DNA of 64,000 nucleotides from contig NZ_FTNR01000001.1 in NCBI RefSeq assembly GCF_900156475.1, forward strand, positions 310,001-374,000, written 5' to 3'. The position numbers were made by a program, and so were the translations under genes. The notes under the pieces are model-generated. The model saw only the letters and a list, made by a program, of their open reading frames with translations, was not told the origin of the DNA and did not search any database. Below, piece after piece: positions 40,988 to 53,466 of the stretch. Source of the DNA: Natronorubrum thiooxidans. GTDB taxonomy: Archaea > Halobacteriota > Halobacteria > Halobacteriales > Natrialbaceae. Within the stretch, counting starts at the first letter, position 1. Each line of letters begins with the position of its first letter.

Positions 40988-41767
40988 TCACAGCTCGCCC
41001 GATCGAATTCGGTCCTCTGCCTGCTCGAGTGCCGCCTCACGATCGAACTCGTCAATAATCGATCGCAGTTCGGCCTCGTCTTCGTCGGCCAACACCCGGG
41101 CATGCTCGGTCATGTTCGGCACAGCACGGATGATGTTGTCCACGATCGGGACGTCCGCGACCTGTGGCGACCGCGAGAGCGGATTGAGGTCGATAACGAT
41201 CTCGGTTTTGTCCATCTCGTTGAGCGCCTCCGCACGATCGCCATCCTCGAGTGGCACCACGACGACGTCGGCCGCGTAGATGCCGTCTTCGTCCACTTTC
41301 GCGCGCTGGTGATCCAAGTTCGGAATTCGGGCGTCGGCCTCGAGGCCCTTGACGTCTTCAGCACCGTGCTCGCGGAGGTGGTCCGCGATGGCTTCGATCC
41401 GCTCGGGTGTGCGATTGAAGAGGTTGATCTCGAGGTCAGCGCCCGTGGCTTCGGCCAGTTCGACCATCTCGCCGGGAACCAGTGCCGCCACGTTGCCGTT
41501 GATCGAGAGCACAGGGTGGTCGGCCAGCAGGAGGTGGGCTGCCGCGACGCGTTCGGCTTCCTCCGCGCTGGAGATCGTCGCTTCGCCCAGCAGGTAGTCG
41601 AACGCGCTCCCCCGACCCTCGGCGTGCATCCCCTGCAAATGGGTGATCCCCTTCTCGACACCCTTTTCGATTCGGTGGCGGGTGAGCAGGTCCTGGTATC
41701 TGGGATGGTCCTTCGGAATCTCCTCTTCGTGTTCGACGTCGGCTGAGACGGTGTCGTAATCGGTCAC
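40988..41767 (-). CDS. 4-phosphopantoate--beta-alanine ligase (archaeal phosphopantothenate synthetase)
   Basis: Protein of 259 aa matching the archaeal DUF137 family throughout: HPRYQDLLTRHRIEKGVEKG, MHAEGRGSAFDYLLGE, HPVLSINGNVAALVPGEMV, DLEINLFNRTPERI and VIDLNPLSRSPQVA with VDNIIRAVPNM. It joins 4-phosphopantoate with beta-alanine using ATP, the archaeal bypass in CoA synthesis, and works after pantoate kinase, whose gene lies at 47862-48695 on the same strand. The two genes are about 6 kb apart here. Confidence 0.92.
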   Translation of the reverse strand: MTDYDTVSADVEHEEEIPKDHPRYQDLLTRHRIEKGVEKGITHLQGMHAEGRGSAFDYLLGEATISSAEEAERVAAAHLLLADHPVLSINGNVAALVPGEMVELAEATGADLEINLFNRTPERIEAIADHLREHGAEDVKGLEADARIPNLDHQRAKVDEDGIYAADVVVVPLEDGDRAEALNEMDKTEIVIDLNPLSRSPQVADVPIVDNIIRAVPNMTEHARVLADEDEAELRSIIDEFDREAALEQAEDRIRSGEL

Positions 41768-42916: not shown

Positions 42917-43564
42917 CTACGGGCCGCGCTCGAGCACGCGTTCGACCGCGTTCGCTTCGCCGCGCCGGACGAGTGCTGACGCCGTCGAGACGGCACACTC
43001 GAGTTCGTCGGCGACGGCCTCGATGCCACCTTCGCGCGGCACCTCGTAGAAGCCGACGTCCCAGGCGGCCTGTAGTGCGGCCAGTTGTCGATCGGAAACC
43101 GCCGTGTCGGTGGTCGTAATCGCCTGACTGAGCCAGCGCACGTCGTGTTTCATTCCGTCGGGAATCTCCGCCATAACGGCGGTGAGCGCCGACGAATGCC
43201 CGACAAGCGTCAGTCGAATCGTGCGGTCGGATCGGATCTCGATCGGCGGGACGACCACGACGGTGTCCTGTGCGAGCGCGTTCAACAGCGACAGCCCATC
43301 CGGCCCGAGATCACGACGAAGATAGAGAAAGAAGCCGTCGTCGGCTGGCGTTATCTCGTACTCGAGAACCGCCTCAAGGTCGTCTAACAGCGGTTCGTAG
43401 GCCTCGGGATCGCCGTAGACAAAGGACGTGATCGTTTCGACGCCATCGACAGCCTGCCCGCCGACGATAATCTCCCGTTCGAGGTCCGGTGAGGTACAGA
43501 TCCCCTCGTGTAGTGGGGGGATCGCTGCCGCCGTGTAGCGGAGTTCGATTCGCATCGATTTCAT
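42917..43564 (-). CDS. Bat-type HTH-10 transcriptional regulator
   Basis: Protein of 215 aa from MKSMRIELRY at 43564; MRIELRY at 43555 is the alternative. The N-terminal 145 residues are a haloarchaeal sensor-like domain of unknown ligand. The C-terminus is the HTH-10 (bacterio-opsin activator) domain: SDRQLAALQAAWDVGFYEVPRE, then EAVADELECAVSTASALVRRGEAN. Divergent from the DUF6176-like gene, 83 bases apart. It could regulate that gene or itself. A paralogue is at 52786-53466. Confidence 0.8.
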   Translation of the reverse strand: MKSMRIELRYTAAAIPPLHEGICTSPDLEREIIVGGQAVDGVETITSFVYGDPEAYEPLLDDLEAVLEYEITPADDGFFLYLRRDLGPDGLSLLNALAQDTVVVVPPIEIRSDRTIRLTLVGHSSALTAVMAEIPDGMKHDVRWLSQAITTTDTAVSDRQLAALQAAWDVGFYEVPREGGIEAVADELECAVSTASALVRRGEANAVERVLERGP

Positions 43565-43647
43565 GGCTCGAGAATCCGGAGGTGAGAACTTAAATCCCCG
43601 ATAGCTATCGGGAGTATCCCGAGGGCGCACCCAGTACGAGTCTGAAT

Positions 43648-44616
43648 ATGGACAGTCAACGACTCCGACGGTTGTGCTGGAGTGGCCTCCTGCTCGGTGC
43701 GGGCCTCGCTGGTGTGTCCGCTCGATATCGGTCTCGAATCGAGCGCTCGCCTGACGAGGGGACGATCATCACGGAACGTCACGCGACCGCCGTTCTCGTC
43801 AGTCGACGGATCGACCCCGGTCATGTCGAGACGATCAAAAACGAGGTCTCACGGACGTGTCTCGGAGTCGATCCGAACCGCGTGCTTGGATTCGAGGAGG
43901 CGAGTACGGCGTCACTTTTTATCAACCGGAGCGAGGCTACCCCCGAACTCGTCTGGTACGTCGAACTCCCACGCGCGGTCGTCGACGAGTGGGACGATCC
44001 ACGGTCGACAGTGGCGAGCGCGTTTCCCGTCGATCACGACGCGCTCGAGCCAGTCGACCACCCGGACGAACGGACGCTGCTTGTCCACGCCGTGCATCCA
44101 GGGCGACCGCGCACGACCGACCCCGGTCAAAACAGGACCGGACGCTCTCTCGAGGATTCGGCTGCTTCCACCCAGCCAGCCGTCGATGTCGAACTGGTAC
44201 GGATGCGTCTCAAGCCCGGTCTTCCGGAACGGCTCGCAGACTGGTTCGAACGCCTGACCCAGCAGGTGATCTCCGGTGAGCGAACGCTCGACCGACTTGA
44301 ATCTTGGAGCGCCGAGATGCTCGAACAAGAGCGGATGTATACGGAATCGATCGTTCTCGACCGGCGCAACGGCTACACGCTGTACCAGTACATGGAAGCC
44401 GACGAGATGCAGCAGGTGTACGACGCCTACTACGATACCTGGAATCCGGTCGCTCGGGTTGCCGAACACCTGATGGGCCGACTGCTCGAGAATCCGGCGT
44501 GCATCCTCGAGTACCCGCTCGAAACTGAGTTCGAACTGCTGGCACACGCAATCGACCCGGACCGCCCCCGGCGAGTCGGTGACTGTCTCGAAACGGAAAA
44601 CAGGCAAAAACGGTGA
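43648..44616 (+). CDS. DUF6176-like protein, two tandem domains
   Basis: Protein of 322 aa. It has a hydrophobic N-terminus (RLCWSGLLLGAGLAGVSA), which could be a signal anchor. Two ferredoxin-like halves follow: about 40-145 (TAVLVSRRIDPGHVETIKNE, PELVWYVELP) and about 172-310 (VELVRMRLKPGLPERLADWF, ERMYTESIVL and YTLYQYMEADEMQQVYDAYY). The pattern of long helix then strand with Met/Glu is typical of the haloarchaeal DUF6176 family, named from memory. It ends 24 bases before the stop of the convergent giant repeat gene. Confidence 0.72.
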   Translation: MDSQRLRRLCWSGLLLGAGLAGVSARYRSRIERSPDEGTIITERHATAVLVSRRIDPGHVETIKNEVSRTCLGVDPNRVLGFEEASTASLFINRSEATPELVWYVELPRAVVDEWDDPRSTVASAFPVDHDALEPVDHPDERTLLVHAVHPGRPRTTDPGQNRTGRSLEDSAASTQPAVDVELVRMRLKPGLPERLADWFERLTQQVISGERTLDRLESWSAEMLEQERMYTESIVLDRRNGYTLYQYMEADEMQQVYDAYYDTWNPVARVAEHLMGRLLENPACILEYPLETEFELLAHAIDPDRPRRVGDCLETENRQKR

Positions 44617-44640: not shown

Positions 44641-47535
44641 TTATTCCGTGAACGTGATCCAGCCGTCGGGAGCCTGCGATTTCACGTCGTTCATCGCCTC
44701 GCGGGCCGCTGTACGGCTCTCGTAGGTCTGTGTGCTCTCAGCCATCGTCGAGCCGTGTTCGTCGACCAGCCGCCACACCCAGCCGTCCGCTGCGGTGTGG
44801 AGTTCGAAGGAGACGCTATCGATCTCGAGAATGCTCGCGTCCTCGATCAGGGTCCGAACGTTCTCGAGGGCAGCGCGTGCGGCCTCGCTCGAGGCGTGCG
44901 TTTCGGTGCCGGTGGCGACCGTCTGCCCGTCCTCGTCGATGAGCCGCCAGCGCCAGTGGTCCTCGTCGTCGGCAACGAGTTCGAACGAGGCGATATCGAA
45001 ATCGACCCGGCCGGCCATCGGCGCGAGCTGGCGAACGTCCTCGATGGCCGATCGCACGGCGTCTTTCGTCGAAAGAGAGGCAACTGCGCTTGCGATCACC
45101 TCGCGATCGCGGTCGACGAGTTCCCATGTCCAGTCGTCGGTTCGGTCCAGTCGGATCGCAGCGTCTTCGATCGCGAAGATCGGCGCGTCACTGGCGCGTG
45201 CCTGTAGCGTCTCGGCGGTGTTCATCGCGGCGTCGCGGTCGCCGTAGGAGACGGTCGAGTCAGCAATCTCCTCGCGGTCGCGATCGAGCAGCCGCCAGTG
45301 CCAGTCGCCGCTTTCGTACAGTTGTACGGTGACGTCGCCGATGGTGTGACTGGACGCGCGAGCAGCCGACTCGCGAACGTCGTCGATGCCGTCGACGAGT
45401 TCGTCGCGGGTCGGATGTGCCATCGCGTCATCCGCGACGACCTCGCCCGATGGCAGCACAAACCGCCAGTGCCAATCGTCGTCGGCGTACGTCTGGAACA
45501 CTGCCCGATCCATCGTCCGAACGTCGGCATCGAGATGCTCGAGCAGCCGGTTCATCGCCTGTCGGGCGGCCCCGCGAGTCGAATGGGTCTCGGGACCTTC
45601 GGCGACGAGTTGGCCGCCCTCGTCGATGAGTCGCCAGCCCCAGCCGTCGTCTTCGTCGACGAACAACTCGAACGCAGCCGTCTCGATCTCGAGCAACTCG
45701 GCGTCGGGGGCCTGCTCTTTGAGCGTCATCATCGTCTCTGCGGCCTCTCCACGCGACGTGTGTTCATCGCCGCTGTCGGCCAAGACGTTGCCGTCCTCGT
45801 CGATGAGTCGCCAGCGCCACTCGCCGGAGTCGGCCTCGTAGACCTGAAACGCCGCGTGTTCGAACTCGATGAGTTCGGCCTCGCTGGCTTGCTCGCGAAC
45901 CCGCTGGATCGCCTCGGTCGCCGTGTCGGCGTCGGGATGGGGCTCGGTGCTTGCAGCGACCACCTCGCGGTCGTCGGTGACGAGCCGCCAGTGCCAGTCG
46001 GAGCCGGTGTCGTCGTCGTACTCGAGTGTGGTGCCGCCGTCCGGTGTCGCTGCGGGCTCGTCAGCCGTCACCGGGAGGTCGTCGTTGGGTTCGGCGGCCG
46101 CTGTGGCGGCGTGGTCGTCCGGGTAGACTTCGTACTCCGCGTCCTCGATTTCGACGATGTCGGCCTCGAGTGCGTGCTCGGCGAACTGGTCGGCACTGCG
46201 CTCGACGGCTGCGTCTGCCGTCGTCTCGTGGGGACTCCGCGCGACGACGTGCTCGGTCTCGTCGACGAGCCGCCAGCGCCGCTGGTCGCCCGCGTCGTAC
46301 AGTTCGTAGGCTGGCTCGCCCGCAACGGTCACCGACGCCGACTCAAGTGCGGGGAGCAACGTCTCGGCAGCCGCCTCGGCATCGCGTCGACTCTCGAACG
46401 TCTCCGAGCAGGTGGCAACGACGTCGTCGCCGTCGTCGACGAGCCGCCACGTCCAGCCCTCGAGTCGCTCGACGAGTTCGACCCCGACGTGTTCGATATC
46501 GAGCAGGCTCGCATGGCCGAATCGATCGACGAACGTCTGGGCGGCGTCCTCCGCTCGTGACTGGGTTTCGTGTCCCGTCTCGCTTGCGGCCAGTGGGGTT
46601 CGGTCGTCGTCGACCAGTTGCCAGTACCACTGATCCCGGCGCTCGGCGTAGGTGAACGCGGCACCGTCGATCTCGATGACGTCCGCGTTGGGGCCGCGGT
46701 CTTTCAGGAAGCTCACCGACCCTTCGGCGTCGTCTCGCTCGGTGAACTCGCCGGCACTGGCACCGACGACGCTGCCGTCGTCGCGGGCGAGGGTCCACTG
46801 CCACGTCCCATCACGATCCTCGTAGAGTCGGAACGCAGAGGTGGTCAACTCCATCAGACCCGCAGAACTGATCTGGGATTGCACGCGTTCGATGCTCTGG
46901 GTCGCATCGGGTCGCGTAACGGCACTTTCGTTGCTCGCTGCGAGCGCTTCTAGATGCAGGACATGCCACTTCCAGTCGCCGTGTTCGTCGCGGAAGACAG
47001 CGAACTGTGCGCCCTCTATCGCATCACCAGTCAGAATAGCTGGATCGTCGGTTGTGCCTTCTTCGTCGACGAACATCCCTTTCCGGCCCGTCAGAATGGG
47101 GACGAGGGCGGTGACGCCTGCGATGAGTCCGACACCGAGCGTATAGACGGTAATGACCTGCACGCTGTAGTCGACACCGAGTTCCCGCCAGTTGTACGGA
47201 TACGCCCAGCCGAAAAAGACGACGCCGGAGAGCGCAACGACCAGCCCCAGCACGCTCGCATAGATCCCGATCCTGCGAACCGGGAGCATCAACACGATCC
47301 CGAACAGACAGAGCGCGAGGCCCGCCGCCGCTGTCACCCCTGAGCCCCTGATTAGCGTATAGGAGTCCGCACTCCCCGCGTAGCCGACGACGAACACGGC
47401 CACTCCTGCCGCACCGAGGATGTAGCCCACGATGAACACCCAGTAGCCGTAGACGTCCGTGCTCGAGTCGGGTTCACCGACGTAGTGTTCGTACAGTCGA
47501 AACAGCTTGTGATGAATTTCACTTAGTGAGGACAT
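44641..47535 (-). CDS. Membrane protein with DUF7139-like N-terminus and 13 DUF1508 (YegP-type) repeats
   Basis: Protein of 964 aa, function unknown. Residues 1-160 hold four hydrophobic segments with GWAYPYNWRELGVDYS, related to the protein at 2-967. From about 172 to the end there are 13 repeats of some 55-60 residues, each built as F-x-L/V-Y, polar turn, W-x-W-R-L-V/I-D-D-x-G-x-V-V-A, S-x-E-x-Y/H-x-S-R-x-A, then helix and A-x-x-L-E-I-E. This is the pattern of DUF1508/YegP. Repeat 6 has an insertion of about 35 residues rich in Ala, Asp and Pro. The repeats are probably cytoplasmic. An AT-rich TTTATTATG (minus strand, near 47562-47570) is the likely promoter. Confidence 0.85.
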   Translation of the reverse strand: MSSLSEIHHKLFRLYEHYVGEPDSSTDVYGYWVFIVGYILGAAGVAVFVVGYAGSADSYTLIRGSGVTAAAGLALCLFGIVLMLPVRRIGIYASVLGLVVALSGVVFFGWAYPYNWRELGVDYSVQVITVYTLGVGLIAGVTALVPILTGRKGMFVDEEGTTDDPAILTGDAIEGAQFAVFRDEHGDWKWHVLHLEALAASNESAVTRPDATQSIERVQSQISSAGLMELTTSAFRLYEDRDGTWQWTLARDDGSVVGASAGEFTERDDAEGSVSFLKDRGPNADVIEIDGAAFTYAERRDQWYWQLVDDDRTPLAASETGHETQSRAEDAAQTFVDRFGHASLLDIEHVGVELVERLEGWTWRLVDDGDDVVATCSETFESRRDAEAAAETLLPALESASVTVAGEPAYELYDAGDQRRWRLVDETEHVVARSPHETTADAAVERSADQFAEHALEADIVEIEDAEYEVYPDDHAATAAAEPNDDLPVTADEPAATPDGGTTLEYDDDTGSDWHWRLVTDDREVVAASTEPHPDADTATEAIQRVREQASEAELIEFEHAAFQVYEADSGEWRWRLIDEDGNVLADSGDEHTSRGEAAETMMTLKEQAPDAELLEIETAAFELFVDEDDGWGWRLIDEGGQLVAEGPETHSTRGAARQAMNRLLEHLDADVRTMDRAVFQTYADDDWHWRFVLPSGEVVADDAMAHPTRDELVDGIDDVRESAARASSHTIGDVTVQLYESGDWHWRLLDRDREEIADSTVSYGDRDAAMNTAETLQARASDAPIFAIEDAAIRLDRTDDWTWELVDRDREVIASAVASLSTKDAVRSAIEDVRQLAPMAGRVDFDIASFELVADDEDHWRWRLIDEDGQTVATGTETHASSEAARAALENVRTLIEDASILEIDSVSFELHTAADGWVWRLVDEHGSTMAESTQTYESRTAAREAMNDVKSQAPDGWITFTE

Positions 47536-47861: not shown

Positions 47862-48695
47862 TTATTTCAACAGTGCACCCGCCGGATGGGTCGCACAGAC
47901 GGTCGGCTCGTAGCCAGCGTCCGACAGGCCCGTTCCGAGGGCGAAGACAGTCTCGCCGAGCATCGCCATCGAGGCTTGCCCCCCAGCGTCTGCAACGTCC
48001 GTGATCGTCGCTGCAACCTCGTCGGTCAACAGCCCTGCCTCGCGGGCGAACAGCCGGGAGGCGTACATGAACGACAACAGCGTCGGCTCCTCGACGACAC
48101 GGGACAGCGCCTGTTTCCCGGCCGCCGACAGCTGGTCGGTCTCACCGGAAAGGACCTCCGCCGTCGAGAGTTCGCCGAACGAAACGTACTCTACGCGCGC
48201 TCGCTCGGGAATCGCATCGAGTTTGTTCTCCTGTGGCCCACCGGGCTCGAGGCGGATCGGAACGCCGCCATGGGCCTGTGCGACCACGTCGCCCAGTCCA
48301 GTTCCAGCCTGCACTTCGGCCCCGTGAGCGATCGTGACGAGTTCGTTTCGCGAGAGTTTGCGTTCGAACACGCAGTTGGCCGCGAGCGCGGTGCCAAGCG
48401 CCATCGCACCCGAGACGCCAAAGCCCGACCCGAGTGGCAGTTCCGACTTGGCCACGACGCGGGCCGGCGTCTCGAGTGTCTCGAGAACGGTGTCGACGGG
48501 ATCGATCTCGAGTTCCTCGCCGTCGAGGACGATCGTCGACTCCCCGCTAGCTGCCGGTTCGACTGTGACTTCGACGCCATTGGTAAGCGTCAGCCCGGCC
48601 CCGCGAGAGCCCGCTATCGTCGGATCCTCGGCTGGGTGGGCGCTGAAAAAGCCCGTGATATGCCCCGGTACGAACGCGGTCGCCTCCTCACGCAT
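47862..48695 (-). CDS. Pantoate kinase (GHMP family)
   Basis: Protein of 277 aa from MREEATAFVPGHITGFF at 48695. GHMP hallmarks: the N-terminal FVPGHITGFFSAHP, the ATP loop KSELPLGSGFGVSGAMALGTAL, HGAEVQAGTGLGDVVAQAHGG, and a C-terminal GQASMAMLGETVFALG. The match is to archaeal pantoate kinase, which phosphorylates pantoate before the ligase at 40988-41767 adds beta-alanine. No regulation is visible. Confidence 0.92.
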   Translation of the reverse strand: MREEATAFVPGHITGFFSAHPAEDPTIAGSRGAGLTLTNGVEVTVEPAASGESTIVLDGEELEIDPVDTVLETLETPARVVAKSELPLGSGFGVSGAMALGTALAANCVFERKLSRNELVTIAHGAEVQAGTGLGDVVAQAHGGVPIRLEPGGPQENKLDAIPERARVEYVSFGELSTAEVLSGETDQLSAAGKQALSRVVEEPTLLSFMYASRLFAREAGLLTDEVAATITDVADAGGQASMAMLGETVFALGTGLSDAGYEPTVCATHPAGALLK

Positions 48696-52785: not shown

Positions 52786-53466
52786 ATGAGAGCCGCGACG
52801 GTGACGCTCTCGTGGGACCACAGCCACGAGAACCCGATCCCCGACGTCTTCGGTACCGACGACACGGTTTCCCTCGAATCGATCCGCTACGTCAATCCCA
52901 TCCACGACGGCCGATACGTCGAACTGCTCGACCTGCGTGGCGACCTCGAGCGGGCGCGGACGTTACTCGAGGATTCGTCCGAGGCGATCGAATACGACCT
53001 CGTCGGCGATGACGACCGGGGCGTCGCCTACGTCCAGTGGCGCACCATCGGACTCGTCGGCGACCTCCTCTCGATCCTCGACCAGCGCGAGATTGTCGTC
53101 GACTGGCCGATCACGGCCGTCGAAACCGAGACCGATCGCGGGCTCGAGTTGACGGTGGTCGGGACGAGCTGGGCGATCGAACAGGCAGCCACGGATCTGC
53201 CCGATGGCGTCACCCTCGAACTCCACCGACTCGGTAGCTACCGCCCGCAGGCAGATCAGCAGTTTGCGACGCTCACCGAGCGCCAGCGAGCGGTCTTCGA
53301 GCTGGCGCTCGCGGAGGGCTACTACGAGGTGCCACGGGAGACGACACAGCGCGACCTCGCCGACCAACTCGACTGCGCGACGGGAACCGTCGCTGAACAC
53401 CTCCAGCGCATCGAGTCGGCGTTCGCGAGCGCCTACGCCGCGTCGATCCAGTCGCAGGATCACTGA
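52786..53466 (+). CDS. Bat-type HTH-10 transcriptional regulator
   Basis: Protein of 226 aa. Residues 1-155 are a sensor-like domain of unknown ligand; the HTH-10 domain is C-terminal: LTERQRAVFELALAEGYYEVPRE, then DLADQLDCATGTVAEHLQRIESA. It resembles the protein at 42917-43564 in layout. Divergent from P450. Confidence 0.82.
   Translation: MRAATVTLSWDHSHENPIPDVFGTDDTVSLESIRYVNPIHDGRYVELLDLRGDLERARTLLEDSSEAIEYDLVGDDDRGVAYVQWRTIGLVGDLLSILDQREIVVDWPITAVETETDRGLELTVVGTSWAIEQAATDLPDGVTLELHRLGSYRPQADQQFATLTERQRAVFELALAEGYYEVPRETTQRDLADQLDCATGTVAEHLQRIESAFASAYAASIQSQDH

Follow-up and report, generated by a model that had tools for sequence, protein, structure and literature searches.

What a membrane protein may do with 13 copies of a DUF1508 domain is the question raised by a gene at positions 44641-47535 of the window, the whole 64,000-nt stretch of DNA analysed here, from a genome close to Natronorubrum. 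The DUF1508 (YegP) domain is widespread and, to our knowledge, has no known function, and we know of no role assigned earlier to a DUF1508 array. This kind of protein is already known at the domain level, where its parts are listed as domains of unknown function. From the gene order, two candidate partners of the array can be named, which makes its role directly testable.

The membrane module and the 13-unit array

The open reading frame encodes 964 aa on the minus strand, with an ATG start and zero internal stops, and its nearest named orthologues are 81-90% identical. The 964-residue membrane protein described in the initial annotation, which gave no strand, is real, and so are its 13 DUF1508 units. 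The NCBIfam model NF041908 (HVO_2922 family) finds 13 stretches (E 1.6e-94, 310 bits vs a cut-off of 90), Pfam DUF1508 (PF07411) finds 11 significant ones (E 2.9e-80, 264 bits vs a cut-off of 22), and a unit HMM likewise gives 13 units, whose cores are 45-51 residues long and usually spaced 56-59 apart (Table 1). Because the unit HMM was built from all the loci fetched, its counts there are not independent evidence; for the window protein, NCBIfam supplies an independent count. These E-values, together with over 40 additional non-redundant complete arrays from relatives, exclude chance. The first unit core begins at residue 177, in agreement with the array start proposed at about residue 172. 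A W-x-W-R-L-V/I-D centre in each unit, as previously described, is too uniform a picture, since unit 1 has WKWHVL, unit 2 WQWTLA, unit 5 RRWRLV, and unit 9 WHWRFV. The only exception to the usual spacing is one insertion near residues 475-510, inside unit 6, which varies in length and is missing from some orthologues, giving a unit 5-to-6 spacing of 58-103. A hidden 14th unit was not found by the unit HMM. The array is strongly acidic (23.3% D+E, 7.9% K+R), a composition that is usual for haloarchaeal cytoplasmic proteins.

Table 1. Features of the array gene and its two conserved neighbours (window positions)
Feature	Position	Strand	Evidence
Whole gene: DUF7139 membrane module + 13 DUF1508 units, 964 aa	44641..47535	-	ORF + Pfam, NCBIfam, unit HMM
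DUF7139 four-helix membrane module, residues 10-153	47077..47508	-	Pfam PF23600, AF2 model, hydropathy
DUF1508 unit 1, residues 177-225	46861..47007	-	unit HMM
DUF1508 unit 2, residues 234-284	46684..46836	-	unit HMM
DUF1508 unit 3, residues 296-342	46510..46650	-	unit HMM
DUF1508 unit 4, residues 353-400	46336..46479	-	unit HMM
DUF1508 unit 5, residues 409-458	46162..46311	-	unit HMM
Low-confidence insertion inside unit 6, residues ~475-510	46006..46113	-	pLDDT <50
DUF1508 unit 6, residues 506-553, first strand precedes insertion	45877..46020	-	unit HMM
DUF1508 unit 7 (central), residues 562-612	45700..45852	-	unit HMM
DUF1508 unit 8, residues 621-669	45529..45675	-	unit HMM
DUF1508 unit 9, residues 680-727	45355..45498	-	unit HMM
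DUF1508 unit 10, residues 736-784	45184..45330	-	unit HMM
DUF1508 unit 11, residues 797-841	45013..45147	-	unit HMM
DUF1508 unit 12, residues 850-900	44836..44988	-	unit HMM
DUF1508 unit 13, residues 909-957	44665..44811	-	unit HMM
Pantoate kinase (PoK), upstream partner in conserved order	47862..48695	-	NCBIfam panto_kin_Meth E 1.6e-54
4-phosphopantoate-beta-alanine ligase (phosphopantothenate synthetase, PPS), downstream partner	40988..41767	-	NCBIfam NF041123

The N-terminal module matches DUF7139 (Pfam PF23600, E 9e-40, 136 bits vs a cut-off of 30). As had been noticed from the sequence, the module exists separately in the window gene 2-967, where DUF7139 is fused to DUF7140 (E 8.6e-52, 7.9e-23; Pfam). 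Its partners include DUF7140, arrays of 13, 5, or 3 DUF1508 units, and CHAD, and non-haloarchaeal members of the phylum have weaker matches that are still above the cut-off. Among the papers searched, none was found to name DUF7139. Within the same genome, the sole DUF1508 match above the cut-off outside the array gene is one canonical unit that follows an Amphi-Trp domain (L001:1492-2157). Next to the array gene and convergent with it, window positions 43648-44616 encode a 322-aa protein with a DUF6176 match (E 1.5e-8), which few relatives have.

An AlphaFold2 model of the 964-aa protein, built from 44 sequences (mean pLDDT 84, pTM 0.56), places four long helices (25-53, 58-83, 88-111, and 124-149) before 13 beta-beta-beta-alpha units and contains no single irregular domain. 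As most units also match DUF1508, neither of the two outcomes named in the initial annotation as refuting it was seen. Confidence is low at residues 152-173 and 475-510. Residues 551-620 (unit 7) have a mean pLDDT of ~73, vs roughly 80-96 in the other units. The loop between helices 2 and 3 and the one after helix 4 are rich in arginine and suggest, by the positive-inside pattern, that both termini are intracellular, so that the array is probably cytoplasmic, as the initial annotation had assumed. Reverse transcriptase matches in the fold comparison (Z ~5) reflect a local strand-helix resemblance and were given no weight, and the membrane module resembles leukotriene C4 synthase, receptors, and VTC only at a level (Z 5-7.5) too low to be meaningful for helical bundles.

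Unit number, unit individuality, and sister proteins

The number and order of the 13 units have been fixed since the haloarchaeal families diverged. The 42 non-redundant orthologues with DUF7139, which represent seven haloarchaeal families, all have 13 units by the unit HMM, and this number is kept down to ~40% identity; recent repeat expansion is ruled out, as orthologues at that level show the same 13 positions. Lower unit counts are explained by truncation at the ends of loci or, in genome G076, by one frameshifted gene, where the 13-unit gene (L080) is split into two overlapping frames by a frameshift or sequencing error. Six paralogues without DUF7139 were sampled, and by the same HMM five have 13 units and the sixth has 12. 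In such paralogues (L096-L101), a short N-terminus of a different kind, with hydrophobic stretches, takes the place of DUF7139; L096 has an FtsQ/DivIB C-terminal match (E 8.7e-9) with no single stretch significant, and one paralogue of this type is encoded on a 255-kb replicon of Natrialba magadii (NC_013924 166686-169193).

The units of the array are individuals. Their pairwise identity within the window protein is 22-49%, and units in the same position share 0.33-0.67 identity with those of distant families. For nine of the 13 units the best match in distant families is the unit in the same position, as it is for all 13 in comparison with the paralogues lacking the module. Unit 7 has the highest column identity in the divergent set (0.65, vs 0.36-0.56 in the others, unit 13 being next at 0.56) and is nearest to HVO_2922, whose structure (PDB 6q2z) superposes on it with Z 7.3 and an rmsd of 2.5 over 53 residues. 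Its low model confidence despite this conservation leads us to infer that a partner may be missing from the monomer. The canonical N-G ... S-x-x-G-Y residues are absent from most of the 13 units and kept in 5-unit relatives, where the longer motif R-H-x-N-G-N...S-G-E-G-Y is strongly conserved. These residues are a conserved feature of the sister family outside the formal definition of the DUF1508 profile, and because the profile matches and the fold are both present despite the motif loss, the array protein is a divergent DUF1508 member. Taken together, motif loss, low identity between units, and positional conservation mean that the array lacks equal sites. A scaffold or sensor presenting many identical binding faces had been proposed for this protein; a scaffold is still the most natural kind of function, but identical faces are rejected by the within-protein identities and the positional conservation.

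The survey of haloarchaeal genomes for repeat number, suggested in the initial annotation, also uncovered a sister set in which DUF7139 is followed by five (19 proteins) or three units (two proteins) according to the unit HMM. The unit numbers of the DUF7139-DUF1508 proteins are odd throughout (3, 5, and 13). In a DUF7139 tree of only 142 columns, in which the deeper order is unsure, a 100/100 branch separates the DUF1508-bearing proteins from the DUF7140 type, and the 5/3-unit set forms one group (95/87). Four genomes (G042, G060, G126, and G162) encode both 13-unit and 5-unit proteins, and the two are therefore old paralogues. Residues 341-450 of a 5-unit model (units 3 and 4) superpose on Escherichia coli YegP (2k8e) with Z 17.0 and an rmsd of 1.5 over 108 residues, whereas YegP and HVO_2922 each align to one unit only of the 13-unit model, which is long and, with a pTM of 0.56, places its units relative to one another only tentatively. 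This agrees with the spacing of the units, which has a median of 53 in the YegP-like pair of the 5-unit family and medians of 56-59 in the 13-unit array outside the insertion.

Gene order with two coenzyme A enzymes

PoK and PPS catalyse consecutive steps of archaeal coenzyme A synthesis. In the window, PoK, the array gene, and PPS follow one another in this order on the minus strand, with a 326-nt gap between the first two and three other genes before PPS. The window PoK has panto_kin_Meth as its best NCBIfam match, at a score short of the curated cut-off of the model. A strong PoK match occurs once in each of 145 haloarchaeal genomes. The window PPS scores 311.8 bits with NF041123, vs an equivalog cut-off of 300. 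Gene order was compared in 142 haloarchaeal genomes that are at least 90% complete, three genomes without a PPS match being left out. The array lies between PoK and PPS in 29 of the 37 genomes with a 13-unit protein (family f1, n = 24; f4, n = 2; f7, n = 2; f10, n = 1) and next to only one of the two enzymes in another four, in two of which the other enzyme is on a different contig. The remaining four, from genera g61 and g63 of family f4, have the array gene elsewhere. The same PoK-array-PPS order is found at a locus from family f8 (L104), and PoK adjoins the array at one from f16 (L103), so that the full order is kept in at least five families. Gaps within it are 61-133 nt in f4 and f7, measured between match edges.

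Among the 105 genomes lacking the array, 60 have PoK and PPS less than 300 nt apart. One genome (G163, L129:1919-2560) contains a relic of the array between the two genes, in which helices 1-2 are joined to units 12-13 and an in-frame TAG is present. From the gene order and this relic it follows that the array was at the PoK-PPS site before the families diverged or reached it early, and it was later lost in some lines. A thiazole-synthase-like gene (its identity read from the sequence) is also syntenic beyond the trio in several families, and given this neighbour, the linkage may in part be plain vertical synteny. The region of the window is flanked by two similar HTH_10-type regulators (42917-43630 and 52786-53466), and a homologue of the former is located between PoK and PPS in a genome without the array (G174, L130). 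A scan for sigma-70 promoters and terminators was uninformative, the models being unsuited to archaea. The fixed unit number, the 5/3-unit sister family, and the gene order with the two coenzyme A enzymes had all escaped the initial annotation.

Proposed role and comparison with known systems

A frozen repeat number combined with position-specific units is, in our judgement, unusual among tandem-repeat proteins and suggests that the architecture is a defined one. The best reading, which we hold tentatively and just short of even confidence, is a membrane-tethered cytoplasmic scaffold of fixed architecture; the scaffold reading is moderately supported. The four helices would anchor the N-terminus in the membrane, from which the acidic array would reach into the cytoplasm as a long arm, and each specialised unit would provide a different contact or joint instead of one of 13 equal binding sites. 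Units of the DUF1508 family seem to pair, because the deposited structure of the single-unit HVO_2922 contains two chains and YegP is itself made of two units, and an odd-numbered array would leave one unit unpaired. Unit 7, the best conserved and the least confidently placed in the monomer model, would be the likeliest site of self-association or partner binding; self-association through it is possibly correct and rests on one pLDDT pattern and on parity.

Judged from gene order alone, the clients of such a scaffold would most likely be PoK and PPS, and the arm might gather or regulate the coenzyme A step at the membrane. We regard this client role as plausible but rather doubtful, and a dedicated coenzyme A scaffold, with a 13-unit arm that pairs with itself via the central unit and docks PoK and PPS at the membrane, as unlikely. 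If true, a DUF1508 array would, as far as we know, have been given a role for the first time, and a central archaeal pathway that is usually regarded as soluble would gain a membrane part. Most haloarchaea have working PoK and PPS but no array, which counts against the client role, and the window itself, with its upstream gap and three intervening genes, does so as well. The four genomes with the array elsewhere also count against it; PoK and PPS stay near each other in them, which, along with the many array-less genomes, would fit a membrane scaffold or envelope-linked structural protein that is unrelated to coenzyme A and occupies a rarely rearranged region. The thiazole-synthase-like gene, which likewise stays near in several families, and the other genes found between the array and PPS in many Natrialbaceae favour the same explanation, and we consider it a realistic possibility, if still doubtful. 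It is harder to reconcile with the trio of f4 and f7, which keeps one order, one strand, and short gaps despite mostly differing wider flanks, and with the 5-unit proteins and the paralogues without the module, which show no such linkage.

The units could also bind a small molecule, e.g. a coenzyme A precursor, with the membrane module relaying or localising the signal. The conserved motif of the 5-unit sisters would suit a binding or pairing site, and HVO_2922 is among the genes induced by perchlorate in Haloferax volcanii (PMC12175516), but the motif is gone from most of the 13 units, the array protein has no output domain, and the literature found reports no ligand for any DUF1508 protein, leaving a sensor improbable. 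A part in DNA-damage or anti-phage responses is suggested by the bacterial yegP genes downstream of capK-capS, where 57 loci have a YegP homologue next (PMC13373217), and by DUF1508 domains in phage proteins. We consider this very improbable, since the gene keeps a stable chromosomal place among housekeeping genes in many genera, is matched by no PADLOC model, and is not a defence-island gene. A mobile or phage gene was rejected, since neither phage records nor PADLOC gave a match; the array protein has only a small number of plasmid matches, mostly short ones, and the single near-complete copy is the Natrialba magadii paralogue. Four known groups of proteins come closest to the array protein.

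Proteins of the DUF1508/YegP type (PF07411, HVO_2922; 6q2z, 2k8e, 2k49, and 3bid) belong to the same family above the cut-off and have the same beta-beta-beta-alpha unit. Members with a solved structure consist of one or two units and lack a membrane module. The array is unusually long, with 13 specialised units, which differ further in mostly lacking the canonical N-G and G-Y and in being usually spaced at 56-59 residues, vs a median of 53 in the YegP-like pair of the 5-unit family. The 5/3-unit proteins (L107-L128) share both the membrane module and the repeat family and cluster with the 13-unit proteins in the DUF7139 tree, but their few units are near-canonical, a long helix is often predicted between the module and the units, and no PoK/PPS linkage is seen in the neighbourhoods compared.

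The same kind of membrane module carries a different cytoplasmic binding module in family f19. One protein (L151) matches both CHAD (E 5e-54) and DUF7139 (E 1.6e-10) in Pfam, and the CHAD-type C-terminus of a second (L152) was assigned by close similarity to the first. In both f19 genomes the gene is beside a PPK1-like frame. CHAD domains bind polyphosphate (PMC6537752). DUF7139 can therefore bring a binding domain to the membrane beside the gene of a related enzyme, and it is a general membrane tether.

A profile of the 13-unit family also matches All3315 (Cis12), which belongs to the thylakoid-anchored contractile injection system of Anabaena (E 9e-6), in which residues 964-1161 are DUF1508 according to Pfam (E 2.6e-7). 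In the structure (PDB 7b5h, chain AD), DUF1508-type units occupy residues ~680-1161 in the membrane-connecting extension. The extension missing in AFP is reported to span residues 610-1,100, and an extra domain of Cis12 has been described as the wide connector to the thylakoid membrane (PMC8894136); DUF1508 is not mentioned in the main text of that paper. Cis12 resembles the array protein in that its extension carries DUF1508-type units in tandem and reaches a membrane. It differs in being part of the baseplate of an injection machine and in having no identified transmembrane domain. Claiming no shared function, we take Cis12, by analogy, as a precedent for a DUF1508 array that may serve as a physical arm.
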